From a virus, in the IMG/VR virus record IMGVR_UViG_3300035670_000670, positions 1-37,162 of that record: a stretch of 37,162 bases of DNA, one strand, 5' to 3'. Of the stretch, positions 16,848 to 37,162 are shown in pieces. Made by a program: the position numbers and the translations under genes. Position 1 is the first letter of the stretch; every line of letters begins with the position of its first letter. Below the pieces are notes generated by a model. It was given only the letters and a program-made list of their open reading frames with translations. It was not told where the DNA came from and searched no databases.

Positions 16848-16853
16848 TGGGGC

Positions 16854-20109: not shown

Positions 20110-20513
20110 AACGCATCTTCCCCGCCAACACGCCGCCAGAGCAGATAGCCCATGCGGTGCTGCGGATGGTCAGCGGGCTGCCTAACAAACCGTTAGCGGT
20201 GACCGTAGAGTTATGGAAAAAGCCGCGCACCAACCAGCAAAACGCTTACCTGTGGGGCGTGGTGTATCCGGCCATCATGGAGGGCGGTGGCGAGGCGCTA
20301 GGCGGTTTTACGCGGGACGATGTGCATGAGTGGCTGTTAGGCGAGTGCTTTGGCTGGGAGGTGCTGGAGGGCTTTGGGCGCAAGCGTATGCGACCGCTTA
20401 AACGATCTTCGGCGCTGAACAAACAAGAATTCAGCGATTACCTGACGTTTATAGACACCAAATGTGCCGAGTTTGGCATTTTGATACCACAACCTTACGA
20501 GAGCGAAACATGA
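20106..20513 (+). CDS. ninB: NinB-like recombination protein
   Basis: The ATG at 20106 overlaps the preceding TGA. The 135-residue product has VELWKKPRTNQQNAYLWGVV, then DDVHEWLLGECFGW, then RSSALNKQEFSDYLTFIDTK, then CAEFGILIPQP. These are diagnostic of the lambda NinB (Orf) family, which binds single-stranded DNA and SSB and helps recombinases load. Its presence next to ERF and an SSB-like gene makes a coherent recombination module. Its TGA overlaps the next ATG. Confidence 0.82.
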   Translation: MKRIFPANTPPEQIAHAVLRMVSGLPNKPLAVTVELWKKPRTNQQNAYLWGVVYPAIMEGGGEALGGFTRDDVHEWLLGECFGWEVLEGFGRKRMRPLKRSSALNKQEFSDYLTFIDTKCAEFGILIPQPYESET

Positions 20514-20719
20514 CACAGACAGAAATGATCCGCGCTCACCTTGAATCAGGGCGCGAAATTACCCCCATTGACGCATTGCAACAGTACGGCTGTTTTCGGC
20601 TTGCCGCCCGCATCAACGATCTGCGTAAAGCGGGGCTGCCAATTGAAACCATCACAGAACAACGAGACGGCAAGGCATGGGCAAAGTATCGTCTTGTTGG
20701 TCAAATGAGGCTGGTATGA
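20510..20719 (+). CDS. winged helix-turn-helix DNA-binding protein
   Basis: The ATG at 20510 overlaps the NinB TGA. The 69-residue protein reads MTQTEMIRAHLESGREITPI, then DALQQYGCFRLAARINDLRK, then AGLPIETITEQRDGKAWAKY. This is the small phage HTH domain (HTH_39-like): helix, recognition helix with RLAARINDLRK, then a wing. It is probably a DNA-binding regulator. Its TGA overlaps the next ATG, so translation is coupled. Confidence 0.75.
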   Translation: MTQTEMIRAHLESGREITPIDALQQYGCFRLAARINDLRKAGLPIETITEQRDGKAWAKYRLVGQMRLV

Positions 20720-21267
20720 ATTTCTGGGTTGACACGCCGTACATCACGGCATACGTGCGTAACGAGTTTTTGCATGACCATGAGAAGGGCAAAGGCGAAT
20801 TTACCCTCTGCACCGTGTTTGGCTTTCGCGCTGAACCTATGCGCGTCCCCATGTTCCAAATCATGTTGGAGTCAGGCGCACAATGGGCGCGTATCCCGAT
20901 CCACGCGCTGTGCAGTAAGCCCTGCCCCGAAATGGCGTTACAGTTGGCTGTGTGGTGGGATAGCTTTAGCCGCAACTGTCAGGTCAAAGAGGTGGCGTTC
21001 TTGCGTAACCACCGCGTCAAGGCCATCGGGCGTGACGGGGTGCAGCGACCGGGAACGTACTTGATGACGGTGTTTTGGTGTGATGGCGGTTGGAGCGAGA
21101 TACCCGACCAGAGCAAAGACCATCACATTATCGCTTTAGACTCGGGGCAATGGATTGCCTACCCTAACAACAGGTTGTTATGGGCTGACCCGAGTTGGAT
21201 CAGAGGGGAAGTGCCGAGGGATTGGCGCTCCCCCTCTGATAACTACAGCGTGGAGGCACTACCGTGA
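20716..21267 (+). CDS. conserved early protein of unknown function
   Basis: The ATG at 20716 overlaps the HTH gene stop. The 183-residue protein is Trp/Phe/His-rich (FWVDTPYITAYVRNEFLHDH, then GTYLMTVFWCDGGWSEIPDQ, then DSGQWIAYPNNRLLWADPSW). Several Cys and His residues (CSKPCPEM) are present but form no standard metal motif. I do not recognise a family. It is a real gene by its coupling on both sides (ATGA at the start, GTGA at the end). Confidence 0.65.
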   Translation: MNFWVDTPYITAYVRNEFLHDHEKGKGEFTLCTVFGFRAEPMRVPMFQIMLESGAQWARIPIHALCSKPCPEMALQLAVWWDSFSRNCQVKEVAFLRNHRVKAIGRDGVQRPGTYLMTVFWCDGGWSEIPDQSKDHHIIALDSGQWIAYPNNRLLWADPSWIRGEVPRDWRSPSDNYSVEALP

Positions 21268-21389
21268 AACGGCTTATAAGGGCTTTATGGCGGTTCTGGC
21301 AGCAACGTAGCGCCGAGGCTAACCGAGATTGGGCAAGCGTCCCTAATCCCGAGTGGCGGGCGTCTAGGGGCGGGAGGGATTATTGGTGA
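21264..21389 (+). CDS. 41-residue basic protein
   Basis: The GTG at 21264 overlaps the preceding TGA. The frame reads VKRLIRALWRFWQQRSAEA, then NRDWASVPNPEWRASRGGRD, and ends TGA at 21389. It is Trp/Arg-rich with an amphipathic N-terminal helix. It overlaps the next GTG. It is too short for most gene callers; reality is supported by the repeated overlap pattern, not by similarity. Confidence 0.45.
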   Translation: MKRLIRALWRFWQQRSAEANRDWASVPNPEWRASRGGRDYW

Positions 21390-21556
21390 ACGACGAAGAT
21401 GACGCGCTGGAGCAAGAACTAAAGGCAGCCCCGTGGGGATATGGGCAACGCCGCCCACCGACGTTTCTGGAGATACTAGACCGGATGCGTAAGGCGGGGT
21501 TAGGCGAGGAGGCTGATTGGCTCCTGCGCGAGTGGACAATTTTAAGTCAGAAATAA
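21386..21556 (+). CDS. 56-residue acidic protein, last gene of the early arm
   Basis: The GTG at 21386 overlaps the previous TGA. The product runs MNDEDDALEQELKAAPWGYG, then QRRPPTFLEILDRMRKAGLG, then EEADWLLREWTILSQK. It is a helical, acidic protein of unknown function. Its last 15 bases overlap the convergent lysozyme gene, and no terminator hairpin is visible between the two arms. Confidence 0.5.
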   Translation: MNDEDDALEQELKAAPWGYGQRRPPTFLEILDRMRKAGLGEEADWLLREWTILSQK

Positions 21557-22021
21557 CGCCCGTTCGTCGTTGCGGCGTTTAACCAGCCCCGGCAATACCT
21601 TGCCTGCCGCCTTTGTCCACATCAGGAAGGCGTCAGCAGCGCCTTCTATATCGCCTCGGTTGTAACGCATCCGTATGCTGCTGCGTTGGAGGTTCCCAAG
21701 TCCGACGTTAAAAGCAAAGCTCACCAGAGCATCAAATTGCCCTTGATGATTAAGAGCAGCAGGGCAAAGTCGGGCCACGCCGCGCTCAAACCTGCCAAGG
21801 TCTTGAGCAAGGATAGCGTCCACCTCTCCCATCGTGAGCTGGCGATCCCAGCCATCGGGTATCGGTAGGTTCTTCCGTTCCTCATATTTCACCGCCGCAT
21901 GGGCTGGGTCTATCACATGGCCGACGCCAACCGTCCACAGCAGCGCAGGACACCGATAAGGGCGTAGCCTCACGCCCTCATGGTGTTTGATCATGCGGAT
22001 AGCCGCGTCTGATACCTTCAC
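21542..22021 (-). CDS. GH24 lysozyme (endolysin) with Glu-Cys-Thr active site
   Basis: This is a 159-residue muramidase of the T4/P22/P1 lysozyme type. The catalytic spacing Glu-8-Asp/Cys-5-Thr is met by E15, C24 and T30 in HHEGVRLRPYRC and LLWTVGVGH. Downstream, FDALVSFAFNVGLGNLQRSS and LPGLVKRRNDERALFL are typical. It cleaves peptidoglycan at lysis. There is no N-terminal signal or SAR segment, so it needs a holin for release. The start is GTG at 22021, overlapping the upstream stop as GTGA. The Cys in place of the usual Asp is also found in some phage enzymes of this family. Confidence 0.9.
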   Translation of the reverse strand: MKVSDAAIRMIKHHEGVRLRPYRCPALLWTVGVGHVIDPAHAAVKYEERKNLPIPDGWDRQLTMGEVDAILAQDLGRFERGVARLCPAALNHQGQFDALVSFAFNVGLGNLQRSSIRMRYNRGDIEGAADAFLMWTKAAGKVLPGLVKRRNDERALFLT

Positions 22022-22503
22022 TTTTTGCCAAAAGCCTGCGTACCAAACCAGAACGCGATGATGCTGGAGAGAATCAACATTTCATCGTCGCTAAATACGT
22101 TTTCCATCGCCACGGCAAACGGGATGCCCGTCGTATAGGCGTACCAGACGCCTGCGATGTTCAGCGCAACTAGCTCTAGCACGAAAATGTAGGTGACGAC
22201 CGGGCGCACCGAGGCGCGTAGGTTGATCATCCATTGGCTTGCGCCTTTGCCAATCTCAATGTCGTGTTGGTACAGGGCTTGGCGTTCCTCGGCAGCGGTC
22301 TGCGTCTGGATTTGCTCCAGCTTGATTTCCTCAACCCGTGCCTGCGCGATAAAGCCGCGTTCAGCAAGGGCTAGTTCGCGCTCCTTCTGTGCGGCAACCA
22401 ACGCAAGCTCATGCTTCTTGTCCTGCCGGTCTTGGAAAATTTGCAGAATCTTGGGCAGACCGCCCGCAAGGAACGACAAAAACGTGCTGACCATCGTCAT
22501 CAT
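22018..22503 (-). CDS. 3TM holin-like membrane protein (GTA-holin type)
   Basis: The 161-residue product has an N-terminal hydrophobic start (STFLSFLAGGLPKILQIF), then a long charged coiled coil (KHELALVAAQKERELALAER to about residue 75), then two membrane spans at VVTYIFVLELVALNIAGVW and about EMLILSSIIAFWFGTQAFG. The segment ASQWMINLRASVRPVVTY before the first of these spans is typical of the 3TM holin family of gene transfer agents and phages. It is placed immediately upstream of the lysozyme gene with overlapping start and stop. Holin function is inferred from family and place. Confidence 0.72.
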   Translation of the reverse strand: MMTMVSTFLSFLAGGLPKILQIFQDRQDKKHELALVAAQKERELALAERGFIAQARVEEIKLEQIQTQTAAEERQALYQHDIEIGKGASQWMINLRASVRPVVTYIFVLELVALNIAGVWYAYTTGIPFAVAMENVFSDDEMLILSSIIAFWFGTQAFGKK

Positions 22504-22907
22504 TTGCTTGCCCTCACTACATCGTCACCCTTGGTGACAGTTACGTGGTCGCCCTCTACGTCCACGCGCATCGGCTGCTCTTTGCGGTCAAGCCGGTCTA
22601 GTTTGGCAATCAGTTCTTTGATCACCTCAAACTCGGGCTTATCTTCCTTCTCCACGGTGCCAGCAATAGACGCCAGCATAGAGATAAGGGCGGTCAGCGA
22701 GGCACCAAGCAAACCCATCACAGCGGCGATCTTCTCGCTATCCAACGCAAGGCTGGAGAGAACGCCAATAACCACGATGGCGGTGATGTATTTAAGACCA
22801 TCCTTGCCAATAGCCTTGCCCGCTACATCCTTGGCGCTGCTCTGGGCTTCAAGGCGCTGTAACTCGGCCTTGATCTGCACCTTCAGCAGTTCAATGTCCT
22901 CGCTCAC
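22500..22907 (-). CDS. two-TM membrane protein of the lysis cassette
   Basis: The 135-residue protein has a helical N-terminus (ELLKVQIKAELQRLEAQSSA), two membrane spans (ITAIVVIGVLSSLALD, about residues 41-56; VMGLLGASLTALISMLASIA, about 63-82), and a charged C-terminal tail. This fits a second holin, an antiholin or a lysis-timing protein. Its ATG overlaps the upstream XhlA-like gene. No spanin lipobox is visible in it. Confidence 0.6.
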   Translation of the reverse strand: MSEDIELLKVQIKAELQRLEAQSSAKDVAGKAIGKDGLKYITAIVVIGVLSSLALDSEKIAAVMGLLGASLTALISMLASIAGTVEKEDKPEFEVIKELIAKLDRLDRKEQPMRVDVEGDHVTVTKGDDVVRASK

Positions 22908-23101
22908 TTGATGGCGTCCAGCAACAGCAACGCCATGCTGCCTAACGCGCCAAACAGCGCAACGATGATGGCCCCGCCCACCTTCAACAAAAGCCCTTCA
23001 AGGCGTTTGAGGCGGGCGTTAATGGCTTCGTACCGTACCGCACAGACATCAACATGGCTTGTCACGGTGACCTCCAGTTCTTGCAACGTCGTCATCGTCA
23101 T
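22904..23101 (-). CDS. XhlA-like small membrane protein
   Basis: This 65-residue protein has an amphipathic helix (RYEAINARLKRLEGLL) followed by one strong membrane span (GGAIIVALFGALGSMALLLL) near the C-terminus. It is the layout of haemolysin XhlA-type holin partners. The start at 23101 overlaps the upstream TGA (ATGA). With the next two genes and the lysozyme it makes a four-gene lysis cassette. No conserved residue fixes the family, so the call rests on topology. Confidence 0.6.
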   Translation of the reverse strand: MTMTTLQELEVTVTSHVDVCAVRYEAINARLKRLEGLLLKVGGAIIVALFGALGSMALLLLDAIK

Positions 23102-23439
23102 CCCTCTGCTGCATCAAGAGCGGTTTTGCGATCCCATACCCATTGTGCCGCCGCTACCGGATCAAAGGGTTTAACGGAATTTGGGTCAGTCGGGTCGTCT
23201 TGCACCGTCCAATCAGCACCGACCGCTGCAAGGTAGTCCTGCAACGCCTGCTGGGTCGGAACAACCTCAAAGTTGCCCGTAGCGCCGGGATCAGCAAGGC
23301 CGACAAATACGGTGTCGTCATGCGCCGTGGTGCCGGGGGAGGCAACGCCAAACGCACCGCCCACGCCCTCGGGGTGCAGGCACAGAAACGACGGCACGGT
23401 GCCGTTCGGGTTAAGCCGGTATTTGATGCAATCGTGCAT
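23098..23439 (-). CDS. unknown 113-residue protein before the lysis cassette
   Basis: The acidic protein has CIKYRLNPNGTVPSFLCLHP, then a Gly/Ala-rich middle, then PFDPVAAAQWVWDRKTALD at the C-terminus. No family is recognised. The location between the fibre-associated genes and the holin genes is one where chaperones for tail fibres are often found, but no chaperone signature is seen. It overlaps the glycosyltransferase gene by 29 bases and the XhlA-like gene by four. Confidence 0.55.
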   Translation of the reverse strand: MHDCIKYRLNPNGTVPSFLCLHPEGVGGAFGVASPGTTAHDDTVFVGLADPGATGNFEVVPTQQALQDYLAAVGADWTVQDDPTDPNSVKPFDPVAAAQWVWDRKTALDAAEG

Positions 23440-24127
23440 GGTGCGACTCCGCGTATTGTCCGTTAAAGCAATGCGCCCCGAAATGCCCCAACTGGCACCA
23501 CGGCGCTACCCATACTGTGCCGCCCTGTTCGCGGTACAGATGGCAAAAGTTGTAATCCTCTGACAGCAGTTCGTGGTTGACGTTCTGCACCTTAAAAAAA
23601 TCATAATGCTTCTGGCCGTCCTTGTTGTACCAGCCCACATGGGGCTTGAGACGGTCAAAAACATGGCGAGCAATCAACATAAATCCGGTTCCAACGTGCC
23701 TAACTTGAAACGGAACGTTTGGGCTGACCATTTCATGTCCCGGCAACTTGTTGATGTTGAAGATGCCAGTCAGCAGGTCTAGGCGAGCGTGGCCGTCCTT
23801 TGCGCCCTCTCGCACCCGTTCCCAGTTGATGCCCTTCATCGGCACCGCACCGCCAATAATGCCCTTGTCGGCCTTGATCATCTTGGCAATGTCGTTCGGC
23901 ACAAACTTCTGGTCTGCGTCAATGAACATCAGGTAGTCGCCGTCTGTTTCCAAAAACAGGTGCGCGATGGTGTTACGCCCGCGCTGGATCAGCGATTCGT
24001 TGCCAAGGAAAATCGTCGTCAATTTGATGCCGTACTGGAGGCAGGCTTCCTTCAAGCCAAGCAGGGACTCTGTGTACTCGGTACACATCATCCCGCCATA
24101 ACACGGTGTTCCGACGACAAGGTGCAT
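23411..24127 (-). CDS. GT2-type glycosyltransferase-like protein
   Basis: The 238-residue protein begins HLVVGTPCYGGMMCTEYTES, as GT2-fold enzymes do. It then has ESLIQRGRNTIAHLFL, the DXD motif DYLMFIDADQKFVPNDI, and later FQVRHVGTGFMLIARHVFDR and LLSEDYNFCHLYREQG, with a base-like Glu-Asp. This order is common in phage and bacterial transferases of unknown acceptor. It follows a hypothetical gene after the fibre genes (TAATG overlap), so it could decorate a fibre or change the host surface. The target is unknown. Confidence 0.75.
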   Translation of the reverse strand: MHLVVGTPCYGGMMCTEYTESLLGLKEACLQYGIKLTTIFLGNESLIQRGRNTIAHLFLETDGDYLMFIDADQKFVPNDIAKMIKADKGIIGGAVPMKGINWERVREGAKDGHARLDLLTGIFNINKLPGHEMVSPNVPFQVRHVGTGFMLIARHVFDRLKPHVGWYNKDGQKHYDFFKVQNVNHELLSEDYNFCHLYREQGGTVWVAPWCQLGHFGAHCFNGQYAESHHARLHQIPA

Positions 24128-24954
24128 TAGGCTGCCTCGGTCACCGGAGCCGCAGGGGGAAGGTTGGTCAGCGAGGATCGGTCAAATACCGAGAACCCAC
24201 GACGAGCGGCAAACTTGGCCGGATCGTCCTGCCATTTGTCGGCACACGCCTCTAACCAACGCAATGTCATTTCATGAGTGGGCGCTTTGCCACTTTCAAT
24301 TAGCTCTGCTTCCATCTTGAGGTACGCCACGACTTCGGCCTGCGCTTGGGTCGCGTTGATGCCAAGGTCAAAAAGATAGATTAGGTTGCCTTCGTCAATC
24401 ACACCGCCACGGCTACGAGCCGCGTTTAGCGCCTGCTTCATGCAGGTCATAATGTGATAACGAGCTTCTTCCTTCTCGTAATCTTCCTCGGTGATTTCGT
24501 TCTTGCCGACTTTTTCCAGCAGTTGTTTGTGCTGGTTGACCAAGAAATTCATTTTACGCACGGCACCGTGGACAGCATTCTGGGCATTGTCCGTGTGCGT
24601 GTTGATCTCCATGATCTCAATTTCAAGCAACTCACGGTCAAACTCATCTGTTGCCGTAAGCAGCGCGGCTTCCTTGCGCTTGAGTTCCACCTGCTTTTTG
24701 CGGAGGTTGATGTACGCCTCTTGCAGCGCTATTTTTGTGCGATCAATTTCAGCCAGCGTGTGCTTGATGGAGCGGATCGGCGTAATAGCCGTTACGTCCA
24801 ACGTCACCTGCATGAACTGCGAGTGCGACTTGTGGAAGTTGCTAGAGTCCTTCACGACTGCTGGCATCCGTGACTCAATGTTCTTCAACATCAAGTTGTA
24901 TTCTGGTTTAGCAACCGGCAGGTTCGTGTAGGGCGTGTGAGCAACCAAATCCAT
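24127..24954 (-). CDS. coiled-coil protein of unknown function
   Basis: The 275-residue protein is mostly helical. A long coiled coil covers about residues 65-150 (EAYINLRKKQVELKRKEAAL, then FDRELLEIEIMEINTHTDNA), followed by HIMTCMKQALNAARSRGGVI. The last 80 residues look globular (THEMTLRWLEACADKWQDD). There is no signal or membrane span. Start and upstream stop share one base (TAATG), and the same holds downstream. It is likely to be either a virion accessory protein or a cytoplasmic assembly factor; I cannot decide. Confidence 0.6.
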   Translation of the reverse strand: MDLVAHTPYTNLPVAKPEYNLMLKNIESRMPAVVKDSSNFHKSHSQFMQVTLDVTAITPIRSIKHTLAEIDRTKIALQEAYINLRKKQVELKRKEAALLTATDEFDRELLEIEIMEINTHTDNAQNAVHGAVRKMNFLVNQHKQLLEKVGKNEITEEDYEKEEARYHIMTCMKQALNAARSRGGVIDEGNLIYLFDLGINATQAQAEVVAYLKMEAELIESGKAPTHEMTLRWLEACADKWQDDPAKFAARRGFSVFDRSSLTNLPPAAPVTEAA

Positions 24955-25889
24955 TAAATACCCCCGTGGGAGTTAGAACAACCAGCGGATCGTGAAACGC
25001 TAACAAGTAAATCGCCAAAATCGGTGGCGTTTCCTGCTGACGCAATAGTTACGTAATCAAGCGTGTTTTGTGCAAAACTATCAGAAATAGCGGTTCTTCC
25101 CCCGCCGAAAACGCCGCGAGTAGACGAAGAACACGCCGCTATAAAATCTCGGCCAGCAGTTAAATCGCCAAAATCGGTGGCGTTGCCAGCAGTTGCGATA
25201 GTTATGTATTCAATAACATTGGTGACGGCTGGGCCAGCAATTTGACCCCCACCGAATAATCCCCTTGTAGAAGAAGAACATCCTGCTAATCCTGATGTTG
25301 CCGCCGTTAAATCGCCAAAGTCGGTGGCGTTACCAGCAGTTGCAATGGTCACGTATTGAATTACGTTTGTTAAAACGGTGCCGGGCCTAAATCCACCCGC
25401 AAAAACGCCTCGCGTAGTTGATGCACAAGCACCCATATAACGCGTTGCACTTAACAAATCGCCAAAATCGGTGGCGTTGCCAACGGTTGCAATAGTGATG
25501 TAATCAATGACGTTGTATCCGGGGCCGCCACCGCCAGCAAACAAACCGCGAGTGTTATTTGAACAGCCAACTACTTCTGGCCTTTCAGACGTTAAATCAC
25601 CAAAATCGGCGGCATTTCCTAATGTGTCAAAAGTGACGTATTCAATCACATTGGTATCTGAAGCGCCTCCACCGAAAACGCCTCGGGTGCTTGAGGCGCA
25701 AGCGCCAAGAGAATCTCTAACGCCTGACAAATCGCCAAAATCGGTGGCGTTGCCAGCGGTGCTAATGGTGATGTAGCCAATGTTATTTACTGCAAAACCA
25801 TTACTGTTTTTTCCACCTCCAAATATGCCGCGCTGACCAATGTCAGCTGGCAAAACAACGGCCCCCAACAGCATTTGCATGATAGTCAT
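24954..25889 (-). CDS. kelch-like protein with six 45-49 residue repeats, probable receptor-binding or fibre protein
   Basis: In this 311-residue protein six units begin RGxFGGG (or FAGG) at about every 45-49 residues, each with NVIxYVTIATAGNATDFGDL in its middle and a Cys-Ser/Ala-Ser turn at its end. The Gly-Gly doublet and aromatic strands recall kelch propellers. Six near-equal units would close a six-bladed ring (inference). The gene directly follows the large fibre gene (TAATG overlap), and its first 15 or so residues (MTIMQMLLGAVVLPADIG) are a separate, perhaps docking, segment. A role in host contact is inferred from position and repeat type. Confidence 0.65.
   Translation of the reverse strand: MTIMQMLLGAVVLPADIGQRGIFGGGKNSNGFAVNNIGYITISTAGNATDFGDLSGVRDSLGACASSTRGVFGGGASDTNVIEYVTFDTLGNAADFGDLTSERPEVVGCSNNTRGLFAGGGGPGYNVIDYITIATVGNATDFGDLLSATRYMGACASTTRGVFAGGFRPGTVLTNVIQYVTIATAGNATDFGDLTAATSGLAGCSSSTRGLFGGGQIAGPAVTNVIEYITIATAGNATDFGDLTAGRDFIAACSSSTRGVFGGGRTAISDSFAQNTLDYVTIASAGNATDFGDLLVSVSRSAGCSNSHGGI
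24990..25775 (-). repeat. DNA-level tandem repeats of the kelch-like gene
   Basis: A block of about 26 bases (AAATCGCCAAAATCGGTGGC and neighbours) recurs near 25010, 25160, 25310, 25457, 25594 and 25730, at spacings of about 136-150 bases. It encodes the repeated AGNATDFGDL segment. The intervening bases also encode protein in frame, so this is a coding repeat, not a CRISPR array. Confidence 0.85.
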
Positions 25890-28675
25890 TAGGTCACGTT
25901 CCCCGTGATCACGCAGTTGTCGCTATCCAAAAACAGTACCGTTGCCACGCCTCTTGTAGCAAGAGTCACGCTGGCCTTGTCCGTGTTGGTGCCTGCAATG
26001 TAGGCGATGCTGATGCTGCATTCCACGGCGATGTTGCCGGTCGTGGCGTTGTAAAGCGTCACCACATCGCCCGTTGCCATAACGGCATTGGGAATAACAA
26101 TTTTGCCGCTTGTGCCAACTCCGATAAACCGACCTGTATCACCTGCCGAAAGCGTATATGACGCTGTTTTGTTAGAACCTGACTGCGGTACGTCGCGGAT
26201 ATAGCCGTACTGGTCGTTGATAGATGCGGCGCTGACGTTAGTTGCCGTCAAAGTCACAATGTTGGCCGAGGTGGCGCTGGCGTTCGTAACCGTCAGCGTT
26301 CCGACATTGGCCGACGCCACCGACGCACCCGTTGCCGTGAGCGTGGTAACCGTGGCCGTCGTAAGCAAAGCCACCCCCGCGTTCATGGACGCGACCGAGG
26401 CGCTTGTGGCGGTCAGGTTGGTGAAGGTGCCGGTGGTAATAACCGCCGTGCCGACGTTGGCGCTGGCAACCGACGCACCGGTAGCCGTCAAGCTAGTAAC
26501 AGTTCCGGTTGTGATAACCGCCGTGCCTACGTTAGCAGAAGCCACCGAGGCTCCAGTTGCCGTCAATGTGGTGATGACCGCCGTTCCGGCATTAGCCGAG
26601 GTGATGCTGGCCGTTACCGCCGCAAGCGAGGCAACGCCCGTAATGGTGCCAGCGTCATCCAAAATAACCGTGCTGTTCTGGATCAGCTTGCCGGTCGTCT
26701 GGTCAAAGCGCGTGATGGCGTTATCGGTAGCCGACGCGGGGCCAACCACATCGCCTGTGCCGCCACCGCCTGCGCTTGTCCACGACAACGTGCCGGTGCC
26801 GTTAGTAGATAGCACCTGCCCGCTAGAACCATCTGCTGAAGGTAGCGTGTAGGTTGTAGAGCCTGCGGCTGCTGCACCTTGCAATCCAACGTAGCCAGAG
26901 ACGCTACCGAGAAGGCGCACAACAGCGTGGTTAGCCGAGGTGATGGACGCCTGCGTACCCGAGAGGGTCGTGACGGTGCCATCGGTAACAAGGGCGACCG
27001 CTGCGTTGATAGACCCAACCGACGCCTGCGTAGCCGTCAGGGTCGTAATTACGCCCGTTCCGACGTTGGCCGAGGCGATAGATGCCCCTGTTGCCGTCAG
27101 ATTGGTGACAACCGCTGTGCCTGCATTAGCCGACGCTACAGAGGCGCTGGTTGCCGTCAGGTTCGTCACCGTTCCCGCCGTAATGACGGCGGTGCCGACG
27201 TTTGCGGAGGCAATAGAGGCTGCCGTGGAGGTGAGGTTAGTTACCGTGCCGGTTGTGATCAGGGCAACATTGGCGTTCATAGACGCCGCAGACGCACCCG
27301 TAACATCCAACCGCGTAACGAGTGCTGTGCCGACGTTGGCAGAGGTAATGGATGCTCCTGCCACACGCAAGTCGGTGACGTTGGCGACCGCAGCATTGGC
27401 CGAGGCGACCGAGGCTGCATTTACATCAAGGCGGGTCAGCGCAATGGTGCCGACGTTGGCTGATGCAATGGAGGCGCTGGTTGCCGTCAAATTTGTGATG
27501 GTGGCTGTGGTCAGAAGCGCCACGTTGGCGTTCATGGAAGCAGCCGAGGCCCCCGTCACGTCAAGGCGAGTGACAAGGGCGGTGCCGACGTTAGCCGACG
27601 CGATAGATGCGCCCGTGGCCGTCAAATTAGTGACAACCGCAACGCCTGCGTTGATGGAGGCGATGGAGGCGGCGGTAAACTGAAGGTTGCCAATGTTGGC
27701 CGAGGCAATGCTGGCCCCCGTTGCCGTCAAATTCGTGACGGTGCCGGTTGTAATGACGGCAGTTCCGACATTGGCCGAGGTGACCGACGCTCCGGTAGCG
27801 CGTAGGTCGGTAACAACCGCCACGCCAAAGTTAGCCGAGGCGACCGATACGCCTGCAAGCGAAAGGTTGGCGATGTTGGCCGAGGCGATAGACGCCCCAG
27901 TAGCTTGCAAGTTGGTGACCGTGGCATTGGTCAGCAGGGCAACGCTCGCATTGATGCTGGCGGCTGATGCACCCGTGGCTTGCAGAGAGGTGATTACAGC
28001 CGTTCCGACGTTAGCCGAGGCAACTGAGGCGCCCGTAGCGGTGAGCGCCGTGACGGCGGCGACCGAGGCGTTAATGGACGGCGTGGAGACTTCCGCAAGA
28101 TTGCTTTTGCCGGTTACGGTGAGGGTGCCGTTGATCGTCGTGTTACCGAACGAGTTGGCGGCGTTGATCATCTGGAAGCGGGTGCCGTCGTAAATGACAA
28201 CGACAATCTCGCCCGAGTTGATGTCGCCAGCGGCGAGGGCGGTGCTGCCGTCTCGCGTCACCGCCTTGGCACCAAGGCCGTCAATGTTGAGCGTCACAGC
28301 GCCCGTGTTGGCACCTGCGGCAATGTAGTAAAAAAGCTGACCCGCAGCGTAAGCAGACAGCGTGGGCGACATAATGCCCGTCACCGTATCTACGCCAGAA
28401 ATGCTACCGATCAGCTTGGCAGCAGTAGTCTGCACCTGTCCCAGATTGGCAGCGTCAGAGGCAAGCGTACCGTTAGCCAATCCCGTGATCTTGTTAGACC
28501 CCATCGGGATATTGGCGGTCGGCGTACTTTGGCCGTCCTTGGTGATGCAGTTTGTCAGGCCGGAGGCAAGGTCAGCCGTCAGGGCGTTAAAGACCGTGGC
28601 CGAAATGACGGTGTTGGCGACTACGGGCTGGCCCGTAGAGTTGATGAGAAATGTACCGCTGCCGTTAAAGCTCAT
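25889..28675 (-). CDS. large repetitive tail fibre / adhesin
   Basis: At 928 residues it has a fibre-type N-terminus (NSTGQPVVANTVISATVFNA, then IPMGSNKITGLANGTLASDA), as in tail fibres that attach to the baseplate or hub. Residues about 200-575 are more than a dozen short units of form NLTATGASIASANVGTAVIT. An island of unlike sequence follows (YTLPSADGSSGQVLSTNGTG, then GDVVGPASATDNAITRFDQT). The repeats then resume to about residue 805, and a beta-rich C-terminal domain of 115 residues (SYTLSAGDTGRFIGVGTSGK) ends the protein. AGGAGA precedes its ATG. It would be a trimeric fibre by analogy. Repeats make it prone to length change. Confidence 0.75.
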   Translation of the reverse strand: MSFNGSGTFLINSTGQPVVANTVISATVFNALTADLASGLTNCITKDGQSTPTANIPMGSNKITGLANGTLASDAANLGQVQTTAAKLIGSISGVDTVTGIMSPTLSAYAAGQLFYYIAAGANTGAVTLNIDGLGAKAVTRDGSTALAAGDINSGEIVVVIYDGTRFQMINAANSFGNTTINGTLTVTGKSNLAEVSTPSINASVAAVTALTATGASVASANVGTAVITSLQATGASAASINASVALLTNATVTNLQATGASIASANIANLSLAGVSVASANFGVAVVTDLRATGASVTSANVGTAVITTGTVTNLTATGASIASANIGNLQFTAASIASINAGVAVVTNLTATGASIASANVGTALVTRLDVTGASAASMNANVALLTTATITNLTATSASIASANVGTIALTRLDVNAASVASANAAVANVTDLRVAGASITSANVGTALVTRLDVTGASAASMNANVALITTGTVTNLTSTAASIASANVGTAVITAGTVTNLTATSASVASANAGTAVVTNLTATGASIASANVGTGVITTLTATQASVGSINAAVALVTDGTVTTLSGTQASITSANHAVVRLLGSVSGYVGLQGAAAAGSTTYTLPSADGSSGQVLSTNGTGTLSWTSAGGGGTGDVVGPASATDNAITRFDQTTGKLIQNSTVILDDAGTITGVASLAAVTASITSANAGTAVITTLTATGASVASANVGTAVITTGTVTSLTATGASVASANVGTAVITTGTFTNLTATSASVASMNAGVALLTTATVTTLTATGASVASANVGTLTVTNASATSANIVTLTATNVSAASINDQYGYIRDVPQSGSNKTASYTLSAGDTGRFIGVGTSGKIVIPNAVMATGDVVTLYNATTGNIAVECSISIAYIAGTNTDKASVTLATRGVATVLFLDSDNCVITGNVT
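26220..28075 (-). repeat. short-period coding repeats in the fibre gene
   Basis: Units of about 19-24 residues (57-72 bases), such as ATGASIASANVGTAVITTGT, repeat through most of this range on the minus strand, with a gap at about 26640-26930. Alternation of SVASAN/SIASAN and NLTA/RLDV suggests gene conversion among units. The period varies, so slippage by whole units is likely. Confidence 0.8.
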
Positions 28676-28685
28676 CGTTTATCTC

Positions 28686-30563
28686 CTATTCCTGTCCTGC
28701 GCCAAAAGCGCCGACACGCCCTGATACTTGCCGTCCAAGCGCCTGCCCTGCGGCACGACGGCGCATATATTCCTGCATATTTCGCAACTCGGCCTGTGCA
28801 GGCTCATCACGCAACATCAGCAGTTTTGCGAGGCGATTGCGCTGCTCCTCAGGCATCCCATATTGCGTGGCTTTTTGCTGCAACATTTGGAACGCGCCGA
28901 CCGGGTTGGTTGCCGCCTGTGAGGCCTGCAACAAATCAAACGTGTCCTTTTGGTCTTGCGCTTGCGCCAAACGCTTAAACGTCTGCGAACCGCCGCCGAC
29001 ACGCTCTAATTTCTTCAGTTCTTCTTGCGACAAAATCATGCGCTGAAACTGACGGAAATCGTTGCCAAAGATAGCGCGGAGCTTGCCTTGCAACTCTGGC
29101 TCTTTGTACATATTTAGCAAGCGCGTCTGACCAGCTTGCGACCCCGCCACGCCACGCAAAGCGTCTACCGCACCAACGCGGAACGCTTCCAATTCGGATG
29201 GCGTTAGGTCTTTGGTCAATTTGGACAATGCCTCGGATGACTCCGACAGCGCACCGCGACCCAACTCTACCGCCGTCTCTAACTCGGCAAAGCCAGCATA
29301 CGTTTCGCGGGCTTTGGCGTAATCAGGCGAAAGCGAGTCTAATTTTTTGACCAAATCCAACCGCAAGCGGTCAAGGTCGGCAGCCTCGTTGTTAGCGCCC
29401 TTACGGCGAGCGGCTTGCGCCTTATCCCACAGGCTGCGCTTTAACTGATCGGCAGACGCAAACGGCAACTGGTCGCCTTGCTTGAGGCTACGCAACTGCG
29501 CGGTCGGCTCACCTCGTCGCGTTGCTGTGCGCTGTGCCGCGCCAAGGTCAAGACGAGCGCGACCAAGGATGCTTTGCAATTCCTCATCAACGGGGAATGT
29601 CACATCACGTAACTTGTTGTAAAGCGGGCCAGCCGCATCGGCTTGACGCTTGGCAAGGTTGGTTAGCTCGTCCTCTGCGCTGCGCGTAACGCCCGTGGCG
29701 CGTTCGGCAGTTTCGGTGATAGCACCGCCACGCCCTGCCGCCACTCGGCGCTGCTGCATTGTCAACTGTCGTCCTGCGGTGCCGGGAAGGTTGGCGAGCA
29801 TATCAATCTCGGCCAACGTGTTACCGCCAGCAGCCGCAATCGGCGCTTCTTTGCCCAACTTACGCAACCGAGCGGCTGTCATTACAGCCTCTTGCCCCGG
29901 CTCCACGCCCGTCATAATGCGAGCCTGAGCGTCACGCTCAAGCAACTCCGCAAGGCGTTCGCGTGGATAATCAGGGCGCACGTTGTAGCCGCCCATTGTC
30001 TCGGGAACCATTCCAACAGCGCCGGGCATACGCGATGCAATCGGCGTAATTGCAGCACCACGAACAGCGCGACCTAAAACATTAGCGCCACCACCAACGG
30101 CAAGCCCTGTGCCTGCGCCCATTGCAGCGCCCGATAATCGGTCGCCCTCATCGGCAGCGCCTGCGCCCGACAATGCGCCCTGCGCGGCGATGTCGCCTGC
30201 GGTACGCGCTACGCGCCCCATTGTGGTAGCGCCACGACCAAGCGAGAGAGGGCCAGTAAACGGCGCAGTCGCAAGACCGCCCGCAAGCTCAAGCCCCGCC
30301 GCCGCCATTGGGCGCTCGGCTGCAAACTGTTGCGTAGCGCCACGCACCACATCCCGATACTGCGGGTTTACAAGCCCCGCCATTTCATCGGCAAAGTTAA
30401 ACGTAGCGCCCTGCGCTGCTGTTAATGCGCCCTGTGCAACTGGCGACATTTGAGCGCCGCGCTGCATTGCAGCCTTGCTTGCCATTGCCTGATCGTGCTT
30501 TGCATACGCTTCATCAGGACTTGCAGCTTCATAGATTTCGCCTTCAATGCGGTACTGCGGCAT
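28686..30563 (-). CDS. probable internal virion / DNA-ejection protein
   Basis: This is a 625-residue protein. It opens with YRIEGEIYEAASPDEAYAKH, a head common in phage internal proteins. A Gly/Ala-rich and membrane-seeking segment lies at about residues 80-170 (GLELAGGLATAPFTGPLSLG, then GAGTGLAVGGGANVLGRAV), and long helices follow (AKRQADAAGPLYNKLRDV, FRQFQRMILSQEELKKLER). Such glycine-zipper segments are typical of ejection proteins that cross the host membrane. No lysozyme or transglycosylase motif is seen. It lies between the 405-residue coiled-coil gene and the fibre gene. The ejection role is inferred from composition and position. Confidence 0.6.
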   Translation of the reverse strand: MPQYRIEGEIYEAASPDEAYAKHDQAMASKAAMQRGAQMSPVAQGALTAAQGATFNFADEMAGLVNPQYRDVVRGATQQFAAERPMAAAGLELAGGLATAPFTGPLSLGRGATTMGRVARTAGDIAAQGALSGAGAADEGDRLSGAAMGAGTGLAVGGGANVLGRAVRGAAITPIASRMPGAVGMVPETMGGYNVRPDYPRERLAELLERDAQARIMTGVEPGQEAVMTAARLRKLGKEAPIAAAGGNTLAEIDMLANLPGTAGRQLTMQQRRVAAGRGGAITETAERATGVTRSAEDELTNLAKRQADAAGPLYNKLRDVTFPVDEELQSILGRARLDLGAAQRTATRRGEPTAQLRSLKQGDQLPFASADQLKRSLWDKAQAARRKGANNEAADLDRLRLDLVKKLDSLSPDYAKARETYAGFAELETAVELGRGALSESSEALSKLTKDLTPSELEAFRVGAVDALRGVAGSQAGQTRLLNMYKEPELQGKLRAIFGNDFRQFQRMILSQEELKKLERVGGGSQTFKRLAQAQDQKDTFDLLQASQAATNPVGAFQMLQQKATQYGMPEEQRNRLAKLLMLRDEPAQAELRNMQEYMRRRAAGQALGRQVSGRVGAFGAGQE

Positions 30564-30566
30564 GAC

Positions 30567-31790
30567 TTATCTCCGACGCGGGGGCAAATCAATAACCTGC
30601 GACGCGCCAATGCTAGGCGGTTTGTAGCCAGCACCGCCAGCGGCACCGATTTCTTGGATAGCAAGCTCTCGGTTCTGGCGCTTTTGCTCTAGCGTTGCGG
30701 GGTCATCGCCCGGCTGCGGAATGTATTGACGGCGAGCATTGGCAAATTCTTCATCGCTAATGACCGCGCCTGATTCCTTACGCAATACCGCATTGATGAA
30801 GTTGCGTTCGGCTTGGAAGAATTGCCGCGATTCGGGCGACAACATGACGTTACCTACACCGCCCGGTAGGTTTTCCTTGAACCGCGAACCAAAACTCGGC
30901 GGCGGGGATTGCAGCATTGGTTCTGCTTGCGCCATGCGTTGTGCGTAAAGCCGTGCTGTTGATTGCCCCTCTGTTGGCGCTTTACCTTCGGGGCGAACGC
31001 CCGGGATCATTGACGGCGCACCGCCAGTACGACTCGGCTGGAAGAAAATAGGGTTGCCTTGTTCGTCTACGCCAGCAACGGGAGCGCCATACGAAACATC
31101 CACCTTGGTGCTTGGTGTTCGGGTTTCCAAAAACTTTGCAAACTCTGGGTTAGTTTTTGCAAATTCAAACTCTTGCACCGATGTTGGCCCTTTTTCTTCG
31201 GGCTTTTTGACGCCATCCAAGTAACGTACTTCACCAGCTTTGTTGACAACAAAAGCACGACCAGAAGCATCAAACTGCGGCGTGGTGCCAAATTCTGCTG
31301 TTTTTGGCGTCTCAAGCATTTGTGCGATGCGCTGCGCCATAATTGGACGATCTTTGAGCGCAGCTGTGCCAAGCCCGGTGGATGCCATATCCAATACTTC
31401 TTCGGGCGAACGACGGTACTGCGATTGCCGCGCGACTTCAGCCAATTCGGTCTGCTCGGGGATAACGGCAGGCGTGGCGTTCGGATCGTACTCGTAACCG
31501 CCCTGCATACGCCCGAGCATACGTTGGGCGTAATCTGCCTCCATGCCCTTTGCTTCTTCGGCTGCTTCACGCGCCTTGCGCCCTTCGCGGGCGGTCAGAT
31601 AACCCTGCAATGCCTTAACAAGCGGCGCAGCCTTCGGGATCGGCGCAGCCGTCCCCTCCATCGGCTGATATTCCTGCTGTGCAAGAGCTTCAGCGAGGGC
31701 AGCGCGGCGGCGGGCTTCCTCTAACTGGCGCTCGTACTCGGTCGGAGCGCGGAACGTGCTGACGTATCGGACGCGATCACTCTTGGCCAT
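30567..31790 (-). CDS. probable internal virion protein, coiled-coil type
   Basis: The ATG at 31790 has GAGGGG about 12 bases upstream and is chosen over the GTG at 31814, which lies too close to its own ribosome site. The protein has about 407 residues. The first 100 are a Lys/Arg/Glu/Ala coiled coil (YERQLEEARRRAALAEALAQ, then AREGRKAREAAEEAKGMEA). The centre has VNKAGEVRYLDGVKKPEEK, and the C-terminal third is NFINAVLRKESGAVISDEEF followed by basic residues and PPRRR. NAVLRKESGAVISDEE is common in phage particle proteins of this position. It overlaps the Pro-rich gene by 14 bases. Confidence 0.6.
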   Translation of the reverse strand: MAKSDRVRYVSTFRAPTEYERQLEEARRRAALAEALAQQEYQPMEGTAAPIPKAAPLVKALQGYLTAREGRKAREAAEEAKGMEADYAQRMLGRMQGGYEYDPNATPAVIPEQTELAEVARQSQYRRSPEEVLDMASTGLGTAALKDRPIMAQRIAQMLETPKTAEFGTTPQFDASGRAFVVNKAGEVRYLDGVKKPEEKGPTSVQEFEFAKTNPEFAKFLETRTPSTKVDVSYGAPVAGVDEQGNPIFFQPSRTGGAPSMIPGVRPEGKAPTEGQSTARLYAQRMAQAEPMLQSPPPSFGSRFKENLPGGVGNVMLSPESRQFFQAERNFINAVLRKESGAVISDEEFANARRQYIPQPGDDPATLEQKRQNRELAIQEIGAAGGAGYKPPSIGASQVIDLPPRRR

Positions 31791-32220
31791 AGTCAAAATC
31801 CCCTCTGTAGCCACCTCCCTGCGGGGTCGTCATGCCGGGGGAGCGTGGATAACCCTGTGCGCCGGGGCCGCGTGGGCGCTGCATTTGACCGCCGATCTGC
31901 GGCGACATTTGCGGGCGGTTCATGCCGCCCATTGGAGGCCGCCCCATTCCTGCCATTGGCGGGCGACCCATGCCGCCCATGATGCCGCGTGATCCGGTAA
32001 TACCCGGCTGCGGCGTTGTCATCGGGCCGGTAAAGTTCATGGCTTGCGGCGGCACACCCGGTGCGGCGTTCGGAGTGGCTTGCGAGTAACCGAGTCCCGG
32101 TACCTGACGCATTGCCATGTCGCGCTGTCCCGGAGGCGCTCCAAGCGAGGTGTTACGTTCTTGGGCAGCGAGCATCTGGGCTAACTGCTGCGGTCTACGA
32201 TCTGGTGAAAATCCGTTCAT
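31777..32220 (-). CDS. Gly/Pro/Met-rich low-complexity protein
   Basis: The 147-residue protein has a helical N-terminus (RRPQQLAQMLAAQERNTSLG) followed by a long Gly/Pro/Met/Arg repeat zone, as in GMGRPPMAGMGRPPMGGMN, then a Tyr/Gly-rich tail (GGYRGDFDYGQE). It is probably largely disordered and perhaps a virion linker. It stands ten bases after the large S74-type gene and overlaps the next gene. No enzymatic motif is present. Confidence 0.6.
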   Translation of the reverse strand: MNGFSPDRRPQQLAQMLAAQERNTSLGAPPGQRDMAMRQVPGLGYSQATPNAAPGVPPQAMNFTGPMTTPQPGITGSRGIMGGMGRPPMAGMGRPPMGGMNRPQMSPQIGGQMQRPRGPGAQGYPRSPGMTTPQGGGYRGDFDYGQE

Positions 32221-32230
32221 GCGTTAGCCC

Positions 32231-35200
32231 TCACAACATTCCGTAATAAACCATCTTGTAACCTTCGGTCGGGTGGGTTGTTACGGCTTCTGGTTTAACC
32301 GCTTCCACCTCGTCAGCCATAACGCCGCGCTGACGCTCGCCAAAGATGTCGTACTCGTAGATGCCTATGCCAAGCGGGTGTGTGCCAACACGCACGACGT
32401 TGGACTTTAAGCGGCGATCTGACGCAATGGCCGCTCCTGCTGCGCCTGCAATATCGCCATACAACCCCATGCGGGCGTTATATGCATTAACTTGGTTGGC
32501 GTAGTTCTGTTGTGCAAATTGTCCTTGCGCCTGACCAGCTTGGAATACTGGCGGCGGCGCAATGGTGACGCCGCTGTAGCCTTGGAATTGCGGAATGCTG
32601 ACCTGACCGCCTGACAACAACGCGCTGATCTCGTTGACTGGCATAGAGCGGATAGCCGCCTGCTGTGCCAACGCCTGCTGTGCCGCTGTGTTGCGGAACT
32701 GCGCTTGTGCGAGGGCTTGGTTGTACTGCTGCTGCTGTGCGGCGTTCTGTGCGGCAAGTTTCTGGTAATCCATGCCGACGTTTTGCGCCAAAGCGGCGTT
32801 TTGCGCGGCTTGAATGTCCATTGCCTGACCAAAACGCTGTTGCTGGGCAGCATTGTACGCAGCCATGCGGGCCAACTCTTGCTGCTGGCCTTGCGACATA
32901 GCCTGATTGTAGAACTGCGCTTGCCCTTGAGCCTGTGCAGCCTGCTGCGCCTGACGCGCCAAGTTGGACTCTTGCGCCTGCAACTGCTGCTGGAAGTTTT
33001 GACCAGCTGCGGCATTTGCAAGCTGTTGCGCCGTGACGTTCTGCCCAAAAATCTGCTGCAATGCTTGATTTTGCGCTTCGCGCTGCGCCAAAGACTGTTG
33101 GTAGTTTTGCGCGATAGCAGCGTTTTGCATTTGTTGGGCTTGCTGACCCATACCGAACTGCGCCAACAACGCCTCTCGGTTGAATCCCTGTCCCTGCAAC
33201 GCTTGTTGGAACGCTTGCTGCTGTGCGGCATTTGCGGCAGCGCGAACATCCAACGCCTGACCCAAGTTTTGCTGAATTGCTTGGTTTTGCGCTTGCTGTG
33301 CCTGCTGCTGCATCGCAAACTGCTGACCCGTTAGGCCTGCTTGCGCTTCTGCGCCCGTGACAGCCTGACCAAAACGCTGCGCCTGCGCGGCTCGTTGCGC
33401 TTCCTCCGCAGCCAACACGTTTTGAATGTTCTGCTGGATCGCTTGATTTTGCAGCTGCTGGGCGCTTTGCCCTTGTGCAAAGTTTTGAGCAATTGCGCGA
33501 TTGATTGCGTCTTGTGCAGATTGCCCCGTCTGGAACGACGCCAACTGCGCTTCGCGGCCAAATTCCCCAGCAGCCAAACGCTGTGCAAACTGTTGCGCTT
33601 GCGCTTCGTTTGCAAACTGCCCAGTTGCCAGCGCCATTTGTGTGTTTTGCGCGATGGCTTGATTTTGTGCCTGTTGCGCCTGCTGACCAGTCTGGAACGA
33701 TGCCAATTGCGCTTCTCGCCCAAACTCGCCTGCGGCAACACGTTGCGCGAACTGTTGTGCTTGCGCCTCATTAGCAAACTGACCCGATGCCAATGCCATC
33801 TGCGTGTTTTGTGCGATAGCGCGGTTGCGGGCTTCCTCGGTTTGCATTCCTGCGCCAAACCGAGCCAATTCTGCGCCCTGACCAAACTCGGCACCGGCAA
33901 GACGCTGCTGGAACGCCTGCTGCTGCGCTTGGTTTTGTGCCTGCTGGGCAGCGAGTGATTGCTGGAAGTTTTGACCAAGGCCGACGTTGTACAGCCCCGC
34001 CTGCTCCATGCCTGCGCCAAACCCTTGCATTGCGGCTTGGTTGGCAAACATGGCGCGAGACTGTTGCTCGGCAAACCCTTGCTGACGGGCCGCTTGGTCA
34101 AGGCTAATGCCCTGCGCGGCGGCTTGCAGCAAAAGGTCATTTTCCTTTTGCATCTGCGCCGACATGGCGGCGTTGTATGCCTCGCCACCGGGGCGCAAAC
34201 CTTGGTTAATTAGCTGCGTTTGAAGCTGCTGCCGTTCTGCTTGTAGTTGCGGCGATAAACGCGACAGGATCGCCTGCTGTGCCGTTGTGCCTGCGTTAAT
34301 CGGGCCTTGTGCAATGCCAGAAAGGTCAATTTGACCCTGCAATTGCGGGCCTTGGACAAACTGTTGCGCGAAGCCGTATTGACCTGCCTGCGGGCCACCA
34401 GCCACGTTGCCGATTCCCGACGTATCCAAACCGCGTAACTGCGGGCCAGCAACGGTGCCGCCCTGCGCTTGTCCAAACTGACCAACGCCAGTTTGGATGT
34501 TGGCGAGATTGGACGTATCAAGCCCTTGGAACTGCACCCCAGCAGGGCCACCTGCGGCCTGCCCAAATTGGCCGACGCCGCCTTGGATGCCTTGAACACC
34601 GCTAGTGTCCAAACCGCCAAGTTGCAATCCAGCAGGGCCGCCAGCAGCAAGACCAAACAATCCACCAGCGGGGCCGCCGCCTGCCATCTGCAATTGGTCT
34701 GCGCCAATTCCTTGCCCAACGCCGCCAACGCCGCCGAGATTTAATCCTGCGATTGTGGGCGCAGCAGGGCCGCCTTGTGCATATCCAAATGCGCCCTCGC
34801 CAACCAAATCAGTAACTGGGCGCGGGCCGGTGTAATCAAATTGGCTAACAAATCCCGGGCTTGGGCCACCGCCTGCAACGCCATAAACCTCGGAACTCAA
34901 CGGCGTCATTGCGCCTTGGATTGGCACGTTGCCTTGGGCCTGCTGACCAGCGCCCATTTGCCCCGGCAAGCCCTCTACGTTGTAGAACTGCGAAGGGCTG
35001 TACGCTTGAGTCAAATCCCCAACAATTGACCCGCCCGCACCTTGTGTTAACGCCCCTGCCGATCCACGGGACGGCAACCAACCGCCCGGAGTAACTACAA
35101 GGTCGTATGGCCCGAGTGCGCCGTACACAAGGTCAGGCACTCCACTCGGGCGAAATGCCGAGGCAATGCCAAGATTTTGCAAACCGCCTGCCGCGCCCGC

Positions 35201-35575
35201 CGCTGCTTGCGACATATACAACTGCGCGAGTTCTTGCTGGCGCAATGCCGCTTCTGCATTCGGGTTGATGGTTTGGCGAACAGTCGGCTGCTCAATGTAA
35301 GTCGTAAACTGCTCTTGCGTTGGAGCTTCGCCAGCGTAGCCGTAGGGGTCATTAAATGCTCGGGCTTGCCACGCTTCCATCGCCTTGTTGTAAGCGTCGG
35401 TGTCAATCGTGGGCGTTTTTTCCCACGTAACGGTTTGCGTACCCGTTGGTGAGTAAATGTTCGGATTGGACATATACGCCGACTGCTTGGCGGCGGCCAA
35501 GTTGGCTTCACCCTGCTTGATGGCAAGGGTGGTGTAGTCAGGCGCTGGTGGCGGTGCTGGTGATTTTTTGCCCAT
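32231..35575 (-). CDS. large 1114-residue repetitive virion protein with S74 self-cleaving chaperone end
   Basis: The N-terminal 140 residues are Pro/Gln-rich (SPAPPPAPDYTTLAIKQGEA). Residues about 150-430 are Gly-rich repeats (GQFGQAAGGPAGVQFQGLD). Residues about 440-1000 are a helical Ala/Gln/Asn field of repeats such as ANEAQAQQFAQR and FQTGQQAQQAQNQAI. The C-terminus (about 1052-1114) is a Peptidase_S74 domain with SDRRLK, in which Ser1052 and Lys1057 have the Ser-Lys spacing of the cleaving dyad, followed by GIGIYEYDIFGERQRGVMAD. S74 domains fold fibre trimers and then cut themselves off. It may be a fibre, a spike, or an ejection protein with a fibre-type end. Confidence 0.75.
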   Translation of the reverse strand: MGKKSPAPPPAPDYTTLAIKQGEANLAAAKQSAYMSNPNIYSPTGTQTVTWEKTPTIDTDAYNKAMEAWQARAFNDPYGYAGEAPTQEQFTTYIEQPTVRQTINPNAEAALRQQELAQLYMSQAAAGAAGGLQNLGIASAFRPSGVPDLVYGALGPYDLVVTPGGWLPSRGSAGALTQGAGGSIVGDLTQAYSPSQFYNVEGLPGQMGAGQQAQGNVPIQGAMTPLSSEVYGVAGGGPSPGFVSQFDYTGPRPVTDLVGEGAFGYAQGGPAAPTIAGLNLGGVGGVGQGIGADQLQMAGGGPAGGLFGLAAGGPAGLQLGGLDTSGVQGIQGGVGQFGQAAGGPAGVQFQGLDTSNLANIQTGVGQFGQAQGGTVAGPQLRGLDTSGIGNVAGGPQAGQYGFAQQFVQGPQLQGQIDLSGIAQGPINAGTTAQQAILSRLSPQLQAERQQLQTQLINQGLRPGGEAYNAAMSAQMQKENDLLLQAAAQGISLDQAARQQGFAEQQSRAMFANQAAMQGFGAGMEQAGLYNVGLGQNFQQSLAAQQAQNQAQQQAFQQRLAGAEFGQGAELARFGAGMQTEEARNRAIAQNTQMALASGQFANEAQAQQFAQRVAAGEFGREAQLASFQTGQQAQQAQNQAIAQNTQMALATGQFANEAQAQQFAQRLAAGEFGREAQLASFQTGQSAQDAINRAIAQNFAQGQSAQQLQNQAIQQNIQNVLAAEEAQRAAQAQRFGQAVTGAEAQAGLTGQQFAMQQQAQQAQNQAIQQNLGQALDVRAAANAAQQQAFQQALQGQGFNREALLAQFGMGQQAQQMQNAAIAQNYQQSLAQREAQNQALQQIFGQNVTAQQLANAAAGQNFQQQLQAQESNLARQAQQAAQAQGQAQFYNQAMSQGQQQELARMAAYNAAQQQRFGQAMDIQAAQNAALAQNVGMDYQKLAAQNAAQQQQYNQALAQAQFRNTAAQQALAQQAAIRSMPVNEISALLSGGQVSIPQFQGYSGVTIAPPPVFQAGQAQGQFAQQNYANQVNAYNARMGLYGDIAGAAGAAIASDRRLKSNVVRVGTHPLGIGIYEYDIFGERQRGVMADEVEAVKPEAVTTHPTEGYKMVYYGML

Positions 35576-35981
35576 ACCTCGGCTCCAAGAAACGACACTT
35601 GTCAGGTGTCTGCGTCATCAAAACAATATCCCCAGAATCATGCGCGGCATCTTTAATTCGCGCTTCTTCCGAGAATCCCATCTTGCTGACCAATGCGAGC
35701 GCCCGGGTATGGTTGCTGCTGATTGGCCCTATTATCTTATCAACTCCTGCGACGTTGTACGCATAATCGTACACAGCCGCCATGTATGTTGGGGTAACCC
35801 GCTCCCACGCGATGTGGCAAACGACGGATCGCCCGTTCCAATTCTCGTAAACCGTCCCGGCAACTAGCTTGCCGTCACGCTCAAGCCCAATGGCGACCGA
35901 CCGATTAGGGTCAAACGCCCCCTCGGTCTGGGCGGTAACCCATGCCCCAACGTGGGGGCCGCTTACGATGCGCCAGCCCAT
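35538..35981 (-). CDS. GNAT-like acetyltransferase, complete right-end copy
   Basis: The complete 147-residue gene runs from the ATG at 35979-35981 to TGA at 35538-35540. It overlaps the following 1114-residue gene by 38 bases. Residues about 85-110 (DKIIGPISSNHTRALALVSK, then MGFSEEARI) carry the GNAT pattern. The upstream extension to 36014 lies within the hub gene and is rejected. It sits between the tail hub gene and the S74 protein gene, so acetylation of a virion protein, or of a host target after entry, are both possible. It pairs with the left-end copy at 1-442. Confidence 0.72.
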   Translation of the reverse strand: MGWRIVSGPHVGAWVTAQTEGAFDPNRSVAIGLERDGKLVAGTVYENWNGRSVVCHIAWERVTPTYMAAVYDYAYNVAGVDKIIGPISSNHTRALALVSKMGFSEEARIKDAAHDSGDIVLMTQTPDKCRFLEPRYGQKITSTATSA

Positions 35982-37162
35982 CCGAGTTGGTACACCACAT
36001 CGGTTGACGCCCACTCCATAGAGACGTTACGGCTGGCGCTGTTGAACACAAGGCCGCCGCAATAACCGATCCCTTGAAGTCCCACAAAGTTGTTGGTGAT
36101 GATAAGGTCTGCACCCCACACCGATTGATTCCAAAGACCCGCATCCCACAATCCGTATTGCGTGGCAACGAACGACAGCGCACCAAGGTCAGCATTGGTC
36201 TGGAAATCCACGTTGATGCCAATGTTGATAGTCGGCTGACCATTGCTGTAGATGGTCGGGCGGCCTCGGGTGAAGTATTTAATGACGCCGCGAGTCTCAA
36301 AGTAGTTAAACGCTTGCAGCGCCTGCGTGTTGATCGCTACGCCATCGTCGTTAAACCCTGTTGCGCCCGATCCGGTTGTCCAAGCCTCGGCAACGTAACC
36401 ATCACCGCCGTAATAAGGTTTGTCGTTGAGCAGCGCAAAGCAGTTAGCAGCCCATCCGGTGAACCGACACCACGCTTTGGTGATGTTGTTCATTACAAAC
36501 TGCACTTGGTTGCCCGTAGAAATAGGTACGTTGACGATGAGGGCGTTGTTGAGCGGGTTGTAGAGCAGTCCCCACCCGAAATTTGTCTTGTAAGTACGCG
36601 CTGCTGCCGCAAAAGCGCCCTGTATCTTGTCTGAAAGGGCTACTTGCGGGTCTAAACGCGAGGATTGCAGCGCAGATGCCATTGGAATCAGGCCATCTAG
36701 CGTCAAAATCAGCAAATCACCGCCGTATTTCTGCACACAACGACGGGAAATTGGCGCACCTATGATCCAAACGCCAATTAGCGCCCATGTAGAGGCGCTA
36801 GAGGGGTCGGTGCCACGATAAACGATGACTTCACCCTGATCGGTGACGAAAACAAGGTTGTCGTCAACGCCGTAGCCTGCGTCAATCGTCCACGTTGCCA
36901 TCGCAATGAGCGTACCGCCCAGATGCGCGACCGAGGATAGGTCAAGCACTTGTGCTGCACCGCCGATAGAAGCGGTCGGCAGATACCACGCTTTCAGCGT
37001 ATTTTTTTGCACAAACCACATCCGGTTTTTGAACAGCGTGGGCTGTATCAAATCCGTTGTGGTAACGCCTGTGATGGCAGGCGACGATGCGCCGTCAATG
37101 GCCGTCCATGTGCTGCCGTTATAGAGCAGGGGCTTATCAGCGCCGTTAGCGGCGTACAAATA
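35540..37162. repeat. right member of the divergent end-to-end repeat
   Basis: This is the partner of bases 1-1623. It begins in the S74 protein gene at the GNAT stop codon, covers GNAT and most of the hub gene, and ends at the window edge. In an exact terminal redundancy the copies would be identical; here they differ. Confidence 0.92.
35963..37162 (-). CDS. tail hub protein, P22 gp10-like (right-end copy, 5' end cut by window)
   Basis: The frame is open from the window edge to TAA at 35963-35965, giving the C-terminal 399 residues or so of the hub protein. It aligns without net gaps with the left-end copy (424-1623), with roughly 45 amino-acid differences in 398, by my count. Many are conservative, but several clusters change polarity (for example VSVGAQEQF against ISTGNQVQF). 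The first codons are lost at the edge. In a circular genome these would be one gene, represented twice by two haplotypes. Confidence 0.8.
   Translation of the reverse strand, partial: YLYAANGADKPLLYNGSTWTAIDGASSPAITGVTTTDLIQPTLFKNRMWFVQKNTLKAWYLPTASIGGAAQVLDLSSVAHLGGTLIAMATWTIDAGYGVDDNLVFVTDQGEVIVYRGTDPSSASTWALIGVWIIGAPISRRCVQKYGGDLLILTLDGLIPMASALQSSRLDPQVALSDKIQGAFAAAARTYKTNFGWGLLYNPLNNALIVNVPISTGNQVQFVMNNITKAWCRFTGWAANCFALLNDKPYYGGDGYVAEAWTTGSGATGFNDDGVAINTQALQAFNYFETRGVIKYFTRGRPTIYSNGQPTINIGINVDFQTNADLGALSFVATQYGLWDAGLWNQSVWGADLIITNNFVGLQGIGYCGGLVFNSASRNVSMEWASTDVVYQLGWAGAS

Follow-up and report, generated by a model that had tools for sequence, protein, structure and literature searches.

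The question raised by this contig is why its two ends carry the same two genes in diverged form. The window, which is the whole stretch of DNA analysed here, is one virus record in full (37162 bases), and its proteins (terminase, portal, major head protein, tail proteins and endolysin) indicate a tailed phage. Bases 1-1623 match bases 35540-37162 over their full length, with an offset of 35539 throughout and a net indel of zero. This had been stated in a preliminary description of the sequence, and both an ungapped comparison and BLAST bear it out. At the offset of 35539 the copies differ at 237 of 1623 positions (85.4% identity, copy versus copy), and BLAST aligns them at full length over 1625 columns with 85.5% identity (E=0), far beyond chance. 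We conclude, with a probability of about 95%, that metagenome assembly produced the end overlap by going once round a circular map and running on into a related phage; it is an ordinary cause behind a real observation. Below, A denotes the haplotype of the start copy and B that of the end copy (Table 1).

Table 1. Coordinates of the features discussed in the text.
Feature	Position	Strand	Remarks
Branch k-mer; the contig's first base is the start of a de Bruijn vertex	1..127		Identical to 35540-35666; first mismatch at base 128
GNAT-like N-acetyltransferase, haplotype A, truncated by contig start	1..475	-	Whole (158 aa) with 35539 joined to 1
Tail hub (nozzle/stabilization-type), haplotype A, 525 aa	424..2001	-	PHROG 5107, E=1.3e-122
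Branch k-mer, second passage, one full turn done	35540..35666		Identical to 1-127
GNAT-like, haplotype B, 158 aa, complete	35538..36014	-	96.2% nt to A; PHROG 4470, E=3.9e-27
Tail hub, haplotype B, C-terminal 398 aa, truncated by contig end	35963..37162	-	81.5% nt to A
Circular phage map, one turn, about 35.5 kb	1..35539		Compare unit lengths of complete relatives

A search of Pfam with hub and GNAT returned no family. Annotations of hub homologues include 'phage stabilization protein' and 'tubular tail B protein'. The label 'amidase' is attached to the hub in PHROG 5107 and in several RefSeq records, while others read stabilization or tubular tail protein B; for this family 'amidase' looks like a propagated misannotation. 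Hub-related stretches were confirmed 584 times in viral contigs, and the hub relatives in the collection of named phages are all below 40% identity, too remote for a test of copy number within the group. Two other regions of the window deserve mention. The adjoining tail-region genes at 25008-25889 and 26313-28088 consist of internal repeats that have diverged, matching one another at about 65-85% identity. At 5577-6601 (minus strand), a one-base indel near position 6100 breaks the major head protein gene into two overlapping frames; the one-base difference at this place was seen against 9 of 9 relatives compared, and in G001 the gene is a single open frame. The split is probably a sequence or assembly error, because a phage that had lost its head protein should not be viable. 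Programmed frameshifting of this gene was considered and dropped, since a close relative has a single-frame gene.

The mismatches between the two copies are patchy. There are none in bases 1-127, 16 in bases 128-398 (5.9%), none in bases 399-468 and 221 in bases 469-1623 (about 19%), and they fall mainly at one codon position. Between A and B, dN is 0.006 and dS 0.16 for GNAT, and dN is 0.079 and dS 0.93 for the hub. Both genes are open in both copies, and both are under purifying selection. The 'strain-level divergence' first ascribed to the two ends is thus an apt term for GNAT (96.2% nucleotide identity), but not for the hub, which is only 81.5% identical and heavily diverged at synonymous sites.

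The first line of evidence for the assembly origin comes from closing the circle. In the start copy the hub is followed by GNAT, which the contig's edge cuts inside its stop codon; in the end copy GNAT is connected to a tail gene. When 35539 was joined to 1, a whole GNAT frame with one clean stop was obtained and the gene order of the relatives was regained, so that joining the ends restores both order and frames, as in a contig whose circular overlap equals the assembler's largest k (maxK). Gene order was counted over 94 loci, 83 of which are long enough to reach from the hub through GNAT into the beginning of the tail gene. In all 83, hub, GNAT and tail protein are adjacent in that order.

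The second line of evidence is an exact signature at the contig start. The copies are identical over exactly 127 bases, counted from contig base 1, and if mismatches were as frequent here as in the adjacent 271 bases, the chance of 127 clean bases would be about 4e-4. A de Bruijn graph was built from the circle 1-35539 plus the linear end piece (B), with k values from 99 to 141. It can be seen that the single branch vertex starts at contig base 1 for k=127, and elsewhere for every other k tested. The lengths also add up exactly (127 + 35539 + 1496 = 37162). The exact start repeat thus equals the largest k, a k of 127 that was itself deduced from the repeat length and from 127-base repeats in relatives. 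The number 127 suggests metaSPAdes as the assembler of this record. For metaSPAdes, k up to 127 is in use for freshwater assemblies, and contigs from metaSPAdes and MEGAHIT have ends shared over exactly maxK (PMC10914622). An exact scan of viral_contigs with a 51-mer of the shared k-mer gave no match, in a set that may omit records of the window's own genome.

Related contigs show similar ends. Three relatives, G013 (IMGVR_UViG_3300044986_000030), G018 (3300034166_000054) and G009 (3300034200_000097), carry exact 127-base terminal repeats and open at three distinct points on the gene map. With the 127-base repeat removed, the unit lengths of these complete relatives are 35393, 35547 and 34047 bases. 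In a fourth record, G011 (IMGVR_UViG_3300042338_000020, 36549 bases; loci L083 and L084), the ends overlap in diverged form over 2372 bases at 94.4% identity, which leaves a unit length of 34177. This overlap lies in the terminase-portal region, not in the hub, and starts with 46 identical bases and, shortly after, a 924-base identical run, not with 127. G011 is therefore an instance of the general case of diverged end overlaps, without the same exact signature; its record is probably a circular map too, and a test for exact repeats would miss it. The 'duplicated' genes thus vary with the point at which a contig opens, as an assembly overlap would predict and a gene duplication would not. As to gene order elsewhere on these maps, in the window the gene for the small protein p10 (9983-10276) separates portal from terminase, but in several relatives (G009, G011, G018 and G019) it is found on the far side of the terminase; as judged from its position, p10 is a moved gene.

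The overlap would then have arisen as follows. The phage map would be circular and about 35,539 bases long, and two related phages in the sample would have in common a stretch of 127 bases or more close to the GNAT/tail-protein boundary and diverge towards the hub. At k=127 the shared stretch would form one vertex of the graph, which a path can enter by one route and leave by two. The contig would open at this branch vertex, travel along haplotype A for one turn back to the vertex, and from there carry on along haplotype B until the path ended at 37162. Haplotype B would accordingly derive from another molecule than A. The preliminary description had already proposed a circle of about 35.5 kb that was assembled past its own start and on into a second haplotype, and the proposal is now supported by the 127-base signature, the GNAT frame across the join, the circular relatives with 127-base repeats, the overlap at another place in G011 and the single-copy gene order. 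Collapsed terminal repeats may give a circular map too, as may DNA in replication, so that circular permutation is only possible. Terminal repeats can give false circular contigs (PMC8862349), and any circular graph, whatever its origin, would likewise let the relatives' contigs open at varied map positions.

Given an assembly overlap, it may be asked whose sequence haplotype B is. Hubs of different members within one metagenome are 73-94% identical (17 pairs, 15 metagenomes), a range that brackets the 81% between the hubs of A and B, so that a second phage with such a hub in the sample would be ordinary. The 'sister strain' named earlier as the source of B does not hold, because the hub, at 81.5% nucleotide identity, is too diverged. 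There is about an even chance that B (35667-37162) is instead either a natural recombinant, whose GNAT is A-like and whose hub is foreign, or a chimera put together in the graph from several strains; this would be a sub-case of the assembly overlap and not an alternative to it. It is favoured by the discordance of nearest relatives: for GNAT of B these are L003 and L008 (96-97% identity), the same grouping as GNAT of A, whereas hub B is nearest to L051 and L052 (85.4-85.5%), whose GNAT is only 84% identical, and reaches only 81-83% with the rest of its own GNAT group. Divergence also rises stepwise where GNAT gives way to the hub, near base 469, although unequal rates of the two genes could produce part of this step. 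Against this sub-case, beyond the first 127 bases no exact stretch of A and B longer than 70 bases occurs inside the overlap, so that a 127-mer graph would offer no second crossover between A and B themselves. An exact scan of viral_contigs with a B-specific 39-mer found no match, and here again the set may omit records of the window's own genome. The discordance of GNAT and hub in B suggests, for the phage group as such, recombination at the GNAT/hub boundary.

Among the alternatives to an assembly overlap, a genuine duplication, in which one genome would hold GNAT and hub twice and the copies would have diverged to vary the tail hub, fares best and is nevertheless very improbable. It would agree with two open copies under purifying selection. 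However, a second hub was found in none of the 94 loci, each of 20 whole records has one hub, and GNAT is present in one copy in each of 8 relatives; a relative with both copies in one genome, as a tandem duplication in the group would lead one to expect, was not seen, and the tandem copy entertained in the preliminary description is not supported. Moreover, the contig begins and finishes inside the copies, the 127-base signature sits on base 1, and the spacing of 35.5 kb, which equals the genome length of the relatives, would have to be a coincidence.

Even less credible is a single linear phage molecule whose physical direct terminal repeats have since diverged. In the course of replication and packaging such repeats are regenerated from each other, and as a rule they do not differ. 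The copies do lie at both contig ends, but with 85.4% identity they are not the identical copies of such a phage; an 18% divergence of the hub with a dS of 0.93 is incompatible with this reading, and the relatives open elsewhere on the map. A terminal-redundancy heterozygote, in which two diverged phages in one cell would give a recombinant concatemer and headful packaging would place both alleles on one molecule as diverged redundant ends, is similarly far-fetched.

The assembly overlap bears on the use of such records. It should be entered neither as duplicated genes nor as a case of hub diversification; for annotation, the record is best read as a circular map that is complete at about 35.5 kb, plus 1.6 kb of another haplotype. 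Tests of circularity by exact end repeats miss such contigs, and with a diverged end overlap also in G011 the window is not unique.

Among known systems, the closest are the maxK end overlaps on which COBRA is based (PMC10914622). In both, the contig starts at a k-mer common to alternative paths and the overlap is as long as the largest k, circular contigs carrying that k-mer at both ends. In contrast to these, the path of the window runs 1496 bases past the repeated k-mer, on the other haplotype. G013, G018 and G009 resemble the window broadly in gene map and unit length, and also in circular closure by an exact 127-base overlap, and differ from it in closing cleanly, without a second haplotype. 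In headful phages, T4 for instance, terminal-redundancy heterozygotes are single packaged molecules made by recombination. They share with the window redundant ends that bear different alleles, but for the two copies of the window linkage on one molecule is only hypothetical.
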